Source of the DNA: Haloterrigena alkaliphila
GTDB taxonomy: Archaea > Halobacteriota > Halobacteria > Halobacteriales > Natrialbaceae
Assembly (NCBI RefSeq): GCF_017352155.2
Contig: NZ_CP071462.1
Coordinates: forward strand, 186,001-250,000
Direction of reading: 5' to 3'
Length of the DNA stretch: 64,000 nucleotides
Part shown: in pieces, positions 2,629-54,822 of the stretch
Layout: each line of letters begins with the position of its first letter
Numbering within the stretch: the first letter of the stretch is position 1
Made by a program: the position numbers and the translations under genes
Notes under the pieces: model-generated
Told to the model about the DNA's origin: nothing
Database searches by the model: none
What the model saw: the letters and a program-made list of their open reading frames with translations, nothing else

Positions 2629-2632
2629 ATAG

Positions 2633-2653
2633 TGCGAGACCGACGGTCTCGCA
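2633..2653 (+). terminator. perfect 9-bp hairpin after ksgA
   Basis: TGCGAGACC, a three-base loop GAC, then GGTCTCGCA. It starts 4 bp after the ksgA stop codon. There is no T-run, so it may act as an RNA 3'-end structure rather than a classical intrinsic terminator. Confidence 0.55.
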
Positions 2654-2659
2654 GACCGT

Positions 2660-2680
2660 TCGCGCGGAATCGCCGCGCGA
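2660..2680 (+). terminator. second perfect hairpin after ksgA
   Basis: TCGCGCGG, loop AATCG, CCGCGCGA: eight pairs, six bases downstream of the first hairpin. The two make a tandem hairpin pair in the ksgA-mscS spacer. Confidence 0.55.
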
Positions 2681-2871
2681 AGACGCAGTGAGGGCCTCGA
2701 GCTGTGAGCGGCGACCAGCGGGAGCCGTGAGCGGGCGAGGGACAGTGACGACAGGGGTTGCGGGAGGGAAGGCGGCGGTGAACGGCCCCGGCTCGAGCTT
2801 GGAACTCACGTCCAACCGACGGATACTCAAGCCTGCACGAACCATTCGCTCGAGAGACGAAGCGTGATCCC

Positions 2872-11848: not shown

Positions 11849-12075
11849 CCGCGGTGGCGTGCGCTGTCGGCTGACCGAACGAATGTGAGGGCAGCCGATG
11901 ACAACGCGCGAGGGATGAGCGAGTGCAACGAGCGAATCGGCTGGGGAGGTCGTGGCAATTCCCTGTTGCCAGCATGACTGCTGACCCGAGACAGTCCACC
12001 GGCCGTCCTCTCGTGCTGGCAACGAGGAGAACCACACCCTCCCCAGCCGATTCGCTCACTCCCTGCGGTCGCTCG
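11849..12075. repeat. inverted pair of a dispersed noncoding repeat
   Basis: One arm on the plus strand contains AATCGGCTGGGGAGG (11935-11949) and GTTGCCAGCA (965-974 within 11.9 kb, i.e. 11965-11974). The mirror arm contains TGCTGGCAAC (12014-12023) and CCTCCCCAGCCGATT (12038-12052). A related copy with the same order of blocks (GCGGTGGCG, GAGGGATGAGCGAGTG, AATCGGCTGGGGAGG, GTTGCCA) lies at 54350-54590. The 566-bp spacer 11799-12364 holds no convincing gene. Confidence 0.75.
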
Positions 12076-12364
12076 TGAAACTCGCGAAGACCCCGCACGG
12101 CTTCGTCCCGCGATTCACTTTCGTTCATCGCGGAACAGCGCGCACCACTGCACAAGACTGGCATCTACTGTGTAACAGGGCGTCGGCGGACAGGAGAACC
12201 GTATCTCGATGTCGAGTTCGTAGCGGTCGAATCCGAGGGGTCGTTCGCTGGGAACGGGAACGACCGCCGCGTTGGAACTGGACGTACCCAACCCGCTCAC
12301 TCGAGGAGAAGCGACGATCACCTGACAGAACTTTTGTAGTCTCGCTGAAAACCCTTACGCAGGA

Positions 12365-37440: not shown

Positions 37441-38667
37441 TTCACGTTCACCGTCCCGCTGTTCAAGCGCACGCCCAAGAGTGCGCCTCCGTCGCCCCCA
37501 GTTTGGTTGCGACGGAGATACCGCAAACCGATGTTCTTTGCGGCGTTGTAATCCGCGTGATTCACATACCCACACTTCCGACATTCGAAGTCCTCGCTGT
37601 CTCGATTGTCAGGGTGTGTGAACCCACAGTGTGAGCAACGCCGCGACGTGTTCTCAGGGTCGACTTGTTCGACCGCGATTCCATATTCCTCTGCCTTGTA
37701 CTCGACGTACTCGTAGAGACGGTCGAACGCCCACTTATGTCCCCACGATGCGCCAGTGCGTTCTCGAATATCGGTTAAGTCCTCGAACGCGATAACCGAA
37801 CACCCGTTCTCACGGGCTTCAGCGACGAGTTCGTTGCTGATGTGGTGTAACATCAACTTGAACCGACCTTCCTCTTTCTGTCCAACAGATTGGCTGTTTT
37901 CGTGCGCCCAGCGTGTCCCACACTGTTGTAGCGAGCCACGTCGTTTTTCGTACTCTCGTCGCCAATGGTCGAACTCGTCACCCGTCCAGAACGTGCCCGT
38001 TGAGGTGACGGCAAGGTTATTCACGCCGAGGTCAATCCCGAGAACCGTTCCGTTCTCGGTGGTTGCCTGTTCCGACGTGTCGGACTCCACGTCCGTCTTG
38101 CAGTTGACGTGAAGCACCCAGTTACCGTCTCGAGAGTGCAGTTCCGCACCCGTGGTTTCGTATTCGTCCGAAAACAGGTATTCGGAGTGCGGCGTGTCGC
38201 TGTTCTCGTCGGGTAGCACGTAATCAGCTTCGACGCGGCCTTCGGTCGTGGCAAGGCTCACGTAGTCCTCGTGGAAGGTGGCGGTGCGTTTGTCATAGAC
38301 GACATGTGGACTGGTGAAGTGTGGTTTCGACGCTTGCTTCCCGTTCTTCCAGCGAGCAACAACGCTCTTGCAGGCTTCAGCAGCCTTGTTCCGAGCGGCT
38401 TGGACGAGACCGCCATTGAAACCGTCTGTCTTCTCGCGCACGTTGTTGTAGGTTTCGTTGTCCAGTGTGGTTTTGCTGGTAGTGACGTATTCGCCTTTGA
38501 AAGCGTAGTCCACAACGTATTGCGCTGACCAGAGGAACGTATCTACAGTGTCTTCGAGGAGTGCAGCGTCGTCGCTGTCCACGTTGAGTGCAACAGGGAC
38601 AGTACGCTGTACTCCCATATGAAATATGTGGCTGCTATGATATTTAATAATTTCTAAATGAAAGCGC
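37358..38667 (-). mobile_element. IS200/IS605-family element carrying only tnpB (IS1341 type)
   Basis: A lower-G+C island of about 1.3 kb next to tRNA-Leu. The right end just after the tnpB stop has the hairpin CCGCT-AA-AGCGG flanked by GAATCCC and GGGAAGCTCAAG, the arrangement seen at the ends of TnpB-associated guide RNAs. The left end is placed by inference before a TTGAT (38668-38672, minus strand). No tnpA is present, so mobility would need a transposase in trans. The exact ends are uncertain by several bases. Confidence 0.7.
37389..38618 (-). CDS. tnpB: TnpB RNA-guided nuclease, apparently intact
   Basis: A 409-residue protein starting [11 protein letters not shown]. The RuvC catalytic residues are present: Asp196 (GIDLGVNN), Glu279 (IAFEDL) and Asp356 (HADYNAAKN). 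The zinc ribbon has Cys328, Cys331, Cys346 and Cys349. TnpB cleaves DNA specified by a guide RNA made from the element's right end, which promotes retention of the element. The start at 38618 is chosen because the sequence upstream is A/T-rich and not coding. Codon and amino acid use are less acidic than in the neighbours, as expected for a transferred element. Confidence 0.95.
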
Positions 38668-54231: not shown

Positions 54232-54445
54232 CCCCGGAAGTACGACAGCGAGCGGGATAACGCTGTGCCCGTCCGTCGCACGCACGGATAAACGTTCGAT
54301 TTGTTCAGTATCGTCGACAAGCATCCCGCTTCGGCCCGACCGTCCGACCTGCGGTGGCGCGCGCTGGCGGCTGGGCGAGTGACAACGAGGCCAGCCGACG
54401 GAGCCGTGCGAGGGATGAGCGAGTGAGCCTGCGAACGAGCGTTAG

Positions 54446-54466
54446 CGCGGAACCTCCGGTTCCGCG
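54446..54466 (+). ncRNA. 9-bp triloop hairpin A
   Basis: CGCGGAACC, loop TCC, GGTTCCGCG; perfect pairing. First of three tandem hairpins. Confidence 0.45.
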
Positions 54467-54476
54467 AACCATGCGA

Positions 54477-54541
54477 ACGGGCAGAGCGCGGCGCTACGCG
54501 CCGCGACTGCCGGGACGGCTTTGCCGTCCCGCAGCGCCCGT
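54477..54541 (+). ncRNA. possible three-way-junction RNA from hairpins B and C
   Basis: The outer stem ACGGGC (54477-54482) / GCCCGT (54536-54541) encloses hairpin B (CGCGGCGC, TAC, GCGCCGCG; 54487-54505) and hairpin C (CGGGACGGC, TTT, GCCGTCCCG; 54511-54531). All three stems are perfectly paired, which predicts a compact three-way junction if transcribed. Expression is not known. Confidence 0.4.
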
Positions 54542-54822
54542 GAGCAGAAATCGGCTGGGGAGGGTGTGGCGACTCACTGTTGCCACGATAGCAGGACACT
54601 TCGCTTCACCCACTTCGTCAGTCGAAGCACCGTTTTTGTCGATCGAAGCGTCGTCCCATCCGCAGTTCTACTGATTGGCTGACTCAACGCATACTTTCCG
54701 GAATAAACGGAGTTAGTATGCCGAATCCGTTCTCTATTCACACGGCCCCAGACGAACGCTGGACGGGTTGCGCTCGAGAAGCGCCCCGCGCCGAAAACAC
54801 GAACCCGCCGTTCGAGGCCCGA

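Follow-up and report, generated by a model that had tools for sequence, protein, structure and literature searches.

The host locus and the extent of the insert

The window analysed in this work is a stretch of 64,000 nt of Haloterrigena alkaliphila (GCF_017352155.2, NZ_CP071462.1, positions 186,001-250,000 of the forward strand), a species with a genome of three contigs that total 4.27 Mb. Between a DUF5789 gene and a gene encoding an APH-type phosphotransferase, both on the minus strand, the window carries one copy of a dispersed repeat, and inside this copy there is an extra segment of 107 bp on the plus strand. We refer to the repeat as the backbone and to the extra segment as the cassette. 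The features described below are the following.

54350-54600 (+), host three-stem repeat (backbone), one copy, split by the cassette; consensus blocks and covariance-model match.
54358-54410 (+), stem P1 of the backbone, CGCGCG/CGTGCG around CGGCTGG/CCAGCCG, with a tandem G.A step; consensus structure, 10 P1 pairs with changes on both sides.
54414-54552 (+), stem P2, GAT-GA-GC-GA-GT-GA-GC .. GC-GA-AC-GA-GC / GA-ATC, interrupted in its 3' arm by the cassette; uninterrupted in congeners G001 and G004, consensus.
54555-54594 (+), stem P3, CTG/CAG and TGTGGC/GCCACG; consensus structure.
54442-54548 (+), inserted cassette, probably a mobile element of the double-hairpin type whose second loop is enlarged; empty site in congeners and match of covariance model R2.
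54446-54466 (+), hairpin A, 9 bp, loop TCC, with TTAG in front (GTAG or ATAG in other copies); shuffles and folding, stem covaries.
54473-54545 (+), second hairpin, GC-GA-ACGGGC / GCCCGT-GA-GC, outer stem of a three-way junction; folding, stem covaries in two-hairpin copies.
54487-54505 (+), hairpin B, 8 bp, loop TAC; shuffles and folding, stem invariant in 12 copies with a variable loop.
54507-54534 (+), hairpin C extended by CTGC/GCAG; shuffles and folding, differing paired stems at loci L051 and L054.
11850-11985 (+) and 12011-12152 (-), two more backbone copies, tail to tail, without cassette; consensus and covariance-model matches.
2629-2683 (+), second double-hairpin element of the window, 55 nt; R2 match, E 2.7e-8.

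The orthologous locus was found by means of the phosphotransferase gene in all five congeners (G001 to G005), six species being compared in total. In G001 and G004 the repeat is present without the cassette and P2 is uninterrupted, which sets the ends of the insert between GAGCG and AATCGG; covariance model R2, whose training set did not contain the window cassette, matched exactly 54442-54548. The first-pass annotation of this DNA had proposed about 105 extra bases at 54440-54546 inserted into the repeat; the insertion is borne out by the two congeners, but the segment is 107 nt long and is displaced by two bases. The 11.9-kb copy used in that annotation for comparison is indeed cassette-free, but it consists of the two tail-to-tail copies listed above, so the window contains three backbone copies. 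Among the other congeners, G002 has the repeat without P2, G005 an inverted repeat pair in which one copy bears a hairpin cassette of its own, and G003 only a remnant of the repeat. The P1 stems at the orthologous locus (L189, L191, L192, L194) are wholly different yet fully paired, as in CGGCTGG/CCAGCCG, GTCGACCG/CGGTCGAC and GTCGGTGA/TCACCGAC, with flanks that can be aligned.

The backbone repeat

The backbone consensus includes the blocks TGCGGTGGCGCGCGCTG, GCGAGGGATGAGCGA, ATCGGCTGGGGAGG and GTTGCCACGATAGCAGGAC. Its stems P1, P2 and P3 emerged unguided from an alignment of 27 cassette-free copies; changes on both sides were observed at 13 of 34 pairs (86 cells), and no shuffle reached this cell count or the covariation score. 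In P2, steps of two base pairs alternate with tandem GA/GA steps in a pyrimidine-GA-purine context, and many copies are closed by GNA triloops, e.g. GAT-GA-GC-GA-AC-GGA-GT-GA-GC-GA-ATC. Tandem GA/GA steps in this context form sheared G.A pairs in DNA and in RNA. G.T pairs outnumber A.C mismatches by 391 to 40 in 97 model matches and by 116 to 7 in the 27-copy set, ratios that are inflated because structure prediction and model fitting favour G.T; at those pairs of the 27-copy set that show double Watson-Crick changes, a hand count gave about 23 G.T and no A.C. This excess indicates that the molecule that folds is the element strand, as single-stranded RNA or DNA.

With the covariance model of the backbone, 147 copies were found in H. 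alkaliphila, all of them on the main contig; the remaining two, smaller contigs, which together span about 450 kb, have none, although backbone copies do occur on some plasmids of relatives. Among the 194 Halobacteria genomes sampled, 69 have matches, and these represent 31 of 65 genera. Natrinema is the commonest genus among the named matches of the repeat, and phage records contained none. Adjacent copies form 23 convergent pairs (tail to tail, as at 11850-12152), 2 divergent pairs and 4 tandem pairs, and this prevalence of tail-to-tail over head-to-head pairing (23 vs 2) recalls the BIMEs of bacteria. Using heuristic gene calls, no clear bias was detected in the orientation of the copies relative to neighbouring genes; a promoter-like AT peak upstream of the copies was absent, as were clear promoter or terminator signals around them. 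No tnpB motif was found near the backbone in 78 haloarchaeal loci (622 kb) outside the window; within the window, a TnpB-type zinc-finger motif (CSHCG..CRKCG..DYNAA) near 37637 on the minus strand belongs to an IS605/TnpB-like reading frame.

Another insert module was observed at a fixed point of the backbone other than that of the cassette, between GCGAGG and GATGAG (L008, L021, L036, L066, L068, L245). It consists of TCTTCGCGAG..GCGAAGG, GGAAGACGC..GCGTCTTCC and GTG, and itself hosts cassettes.

Fold of the window cassette

Hairpins A, B and C of the cassette are perfectly paired; the core of hairpin C (54512-54530) is an 8-bp stem, GGGACGGC TTT GCCGTCCC, and the outer stem, ACGGGC/GCCCGT (54477-54482/54536-54541), continues with GC/GC on the far side of a tandem G.A step. 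The three triloop hairpins (TCC, TAC, TTT) and the 6-bp outer stem around B and C were thus found as they had been described from the letters, and the accompanying claim of a pairing density far above chance agrees with the shuffles. Of 5000 dinucleotide shuffles of the cassette, 4871 contained no such hairpin, 127 contained one, 2 contained two, and none contained three; the fold of the cassette alone has a z of -6.2 with RNA parameters and -6.3 with DNA parameters, and none of 200 shuffles was equally stable.

Folded on its own, the cassette has the three-way junction as its minimum-energy structure under both sets of parameters. When the flanks are included (151 nt) the signal is weaker (z = -2.8), and in the minimum-energy fold GGCAG pairs with CTGCC and the outer stem is lost; the centroid retains the junction. 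The junction predicted in the first-pass annotation is real, but it is composite: the element has two hairpins, and two more hairpins fill the loop of the second one, from which the three-way junction arises.

The cassette family

The unit of the family comprises TAG, a perfect 9-bp hairpin with a 3-nt loop, RACCRT and GCGAACGG(..)CCGTGAGCAGA, with a minimum length of about 60 nt; its second hairpin can also be written as GCGAACGG-(loop)-CCGTGAGC, followed by AGA. In the 107-nt form the second loop contains hairpins B and C. Hairpin A is preceded by TTAG, GTAG or ATAG in most copies, and the cassette ends, TTAGCGCGG and GTGAGCAGA, are not complementary, i.e. they form no terminal inverted repeat.

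A search for this plan in other haloarchaea, which had been proposed together with the original description, was productive: model R2 found the unit in 149 of the 194 Halobacteria genomes (55 of 65 genera), and in 89 of these 149 the host repeat was not found at the thresholds applied. The exact cassette pattern had no match in the viral contigs searched. In H. alkaliphila 37 cassettes were found; its two smaller contigs have none, although cassettes too occur on some plasmids of relatives. Twelve of the 37 lie in a backbone repeat or abut one, and their orientation is the same in all 12 cases. The copy at 1510161-1510267 of this genome is the same cassette in the same backbone site, with 93% identity.

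In regard to compensatory changes, which had also been put forward as a check, the stems covary: 17 two-hairpin copies show changes on both sides at 7 of 19 pairs (26 cells vs 5.3 expected from shuffles). This covariation, as well as that of the backbone, fits RNA and single-stranded DNA alike and does not separate them, and the two-hairpin alignments (A5, A6) show no strand asymmetry in the form of a G.T excess over A.C. In 12 long-form copies the stem of B never varies and that of C scarcely does, for which reason no covariation is seen for B and C alone in this set; their triloops vary and occur in both orientations. Hairpin B accompanied by different, yet paired, C stems was found at L051 and L054, which come from two other families, and in the cassette of G005 (L193) the inner hairpins are in inverted order. 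It was also observed that columns 14-16, 54-56 and 79-81 of the long-form alignment (A3) are hypervariable triloops, with the stems of B and C unchanged, and that these loops form reverse-complement pairs (TCC/GGA, TTC/GAA, TAC/GTA), as if the hairpins flip.

The second double-hairpin element of the window (2629-2683) has a variant second hairpin, TTCGCGCGG..CCGCGCGAA, and starts immediately downstream of the gene at 1759-2628, after its stop codon; elsewhere in the H. alkaliphila genome there are several more copies of this kind and length (55 nt).

Insertion sites outside the backbone

In several genera IS605-type elements carry the cassette in their right-end palindrome, always at the same point. 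It lies at the 3' end of tnpB (identified by Pfam OrfB_IS605 and Cas12f1-like_TNB) and is antisense to this gene. When the filled right end of Halostagnicola larsenii (NZ_CP007059) was aligned with the empty right ends of ISHma12 of Haloarcula marismortui and of Haloterrigena turkmenica pHTUR01, a clean 60-bp insertion was observed with no target duplication, and the empty state restores a perfect 9-bp palindrome. Of 100 plasmid records that match the filled right end, 5 reach a query coverage of at least 80%; most of the 40 plasmid matches listed are in two pieces with about 61-63% coverage, as expected for empty right ends.

Inspection by eye located further cassettes nested in other cassettes (L047, L065), in or near T-run hairpins, in a second backbone hairpin module (L245, L214) and in GGGACTGAAAGGGG-type elements. 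Two of those in T-run hairpins (L244, L250) lie beside opposite-strand sequence that by eye resembles tRNA 3' ends. A generic pairing test did not find the reconstructed insertion points enclosed by palindromes above the control level; GC-rich controls pair to the same extent, and at the two best-known sites the insertion falls within a stem arm.

The second hairpin of the cassette resembles the right-end hairpin of ISHma12, GCGAACGGCGTCAGCCGTGAGC. Tandem G.A steps of the kind seen in backbone and cassette also occur in both end hairpins of ISHma12 (L256, Haloarcula marismortui pNG500), and it is possible that these steps are a shared recognition feature.

A probable mobile element and its proposed processing as single-stranded DNA

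By comparison of loci, the cassette is an insertion with defined ends and a fixed orientation relative to its host, and it is a member of a family that nests; by comparison of its copies, the stems are conserved through compensatory changes. The first reading of this DNA had offered two alternatives, a mobile palindromic module or a structured noncoding RNA not described before. The former agrees with the empty site at the orthologous locus, the filled and empty IS605 ends, the host-independent distribution and the nested copies; this support comes from sequence comparison. We consider it reasonably probable that the cassette of 107 bp is a double-hairpin element that moves non-autonomously and whose single-stranded DNA form is processed in trans. 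According to this proposal, the cassette would have entered the 3' arm of P2 in the three-stem repeat with no duplication of the target, and the loop of the second hairpin of a unit of about 60 nt would have been filled by two more hairpins. The mobile form would be a folded single DNA strand, processed in trans by a putative hairpin-recognising enzyme (HUH/Y1-like), and hairpins exposed as single strands would be the preferred targets. We infer the single-stranded DNA intermediate from the GTAG-type tag, the ISHma12-like second hairpin, the G.A steps of the ISHma12 left end, the fixed orientation and the lack of target duplication.

An IS200-type Y1 transposase was considered as the partner and found no support. 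None of the cassettes lies at the Y1 loci of the H. alkaliphila genome, and cassette and Y1 numbers do not correlate over the 194 genomes (rho 0.03, where a count of 28 means at least 28); 14 genomes have at least 7 cassettes and no Y1 match. No transposase for the cassette was recognised at the Y1 loci of its own genome or from the Y1 counts of the 194 genomes.

The lack of correlation with Y1 numbers would also suit a different explanation, in which no transposase is involved and the cassette passes between hairpin-rich repeats, chiefly through ectopic gene conversion or through template switching during replication, and reaches new sites rarely, through stalling of forks at the hairpins. 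The 147 backbone copies offer ample homology for such exchange, the copy at 1510161-1510267 is what it would leave, and P1 stems that differ entirely at orthologous loci and remain paired are what conversion or hairpin correction would give. The unit is present, however, at unrelated sites with no flanking homology (IS605 right ends, T-run hairpins, other modules), and as the main route of spread we regard conversion as rather unlikely. Locally, conversion between repeats probably adds to the spread, and the window cassette may have come by this means from another repeat.

A role as functional structured RNA, encoded by a gene of its own or acting as a UTR element and selected for its folding, seems improbable for either the cassette or the repeat as a whole. 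The strong covariation of cassette and backbone stems, the excess of G.T over A.C that implies that one strand of the backbone folds, and the z of about -6 of the cassette fold are in its favour; nonetheless, all of these fit single-stranded DNA too. At the gathering score, Rfam 15 gave no match, only chance-level matches were found, and none of them lay over the repeat. Together with the lack of a promoter-like AT peak upstream of the backbone and of a preferred orientation to genes, this leaves the proposed noncoding RNA not supported, and the patchy presence, even at one orthologous locus, also argues against it. A dedicated RNA gene is unsupported by present evidence, and mobile DNA is the most likely reading. 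It is hardly credible that the ancestor was the long form, from which cassette-free copies arose by deletion, since, even if only six species were compared at the window locus, P2 is uninterrupted in G001 and G004, empty IS605 right ends are far commoner among the plasmid matches listed, and the empty state is a perfect 9-bp palindrome.

In a broader and more tentative proposal, haloarchaea might harbour a system of nested single-stranded hairpin elements, formed by the three-stem repeat, the cassette and further modules, with tandem G.A steps of the Y-GA-R type and GNA-type loops. In archaea the cassette could then correspond to REP and double-hairpin elements, and a putative enzyme acting on folded single-stranded DNA would move it into other hairpins, the TnpB right end included. 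If this is true, a cassette in the right end would break up the hairpin with which the TnpB guide RNA presumably terminates on its 3' side. The presence of cassettes in right-end hairpins of TnpB elements bears on possible ways of silencing these RNA-guided elements. What appeared as an isolated oddity is now seen as a probably mobile element spread across the class: its ends are exact, it is described by a covariance model, both occupied and empty sites are available for it, and it tends to nest. The structure of the tandem-G.A stems as a single strand is unusual and open to testing.

Comparison with known systems

Among open-licence papers no published description of the cassette family was found, the closest being those of the SMR and PATE elements. 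SMR-A of Haloquadratum walsbyi (HqIRS42, 43, 55; Dyall-Smith et al. 2011, PMC3119063) is a non-coding element of about 110 bp with prominent terminal inverted repeats, which is inserted in near-terminal palindromes of IS605-type/PATE elements with no target duplication, and whose mobilisation was considered enigmatic. The cassette has 107 bp, too short for a transposase gene, it does not duplicate its target, and other members of its family target IS605 right-end palindromes, although the window copy has the three-stem repeat as its host. Compared by description, it differs in its minimal unit of about 60 nt, its class-wide distribution and the absence of terminal inverted repeats; since the latter define SMR-A, the cassette is not filed as such. 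By analogy, it would work like an SMR-A element, and the mobility of haloarchaeal short repeats, enigmatic in 2011, gains a definable substrate.

In common with PATE (palindrome-associated transposable elements, PMC3119063) the cassette has hairpins near both ends, no terminal inverted repeat and no target duplication. Its second hairpin resembles the right-end hairpin of an IS605-type element (ISHma12); the cassette is far shorter, and no flanking target oligonucleotide was found. The backbone shares tandem G.A hairpins with the ISHma12 ends and has no tnpB motif nearby in the 78 loci mentioned above. In bacteria, GTAG-tagged REP elements occur with RAYT transposases (PMC3733652), and archaea have been reported to have only ordinary IS200-type Y1 proteins (PMC6006769). 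The cassette is similar to REP elements in the TAG/GTAG directly before a perfect hairpin and in its many intergenic copies; in contrast, its unit has a second, different hairpin, and no RAYT (Y1) gene is associated with it.

Mitochondrial double-hairpin elements and yeast GC clusters insert into one another, as cassettes do. Double-hairpin elements of fungal mitochondrial DNA are described by Paquin et al. 2000, as cited in PMC5910586; there is no sequence relation between these elements and the cassette, and the plan alone is alike: in them and in yeast GC clusters, as in the cassette, two hairpins constitute the mobile unit.
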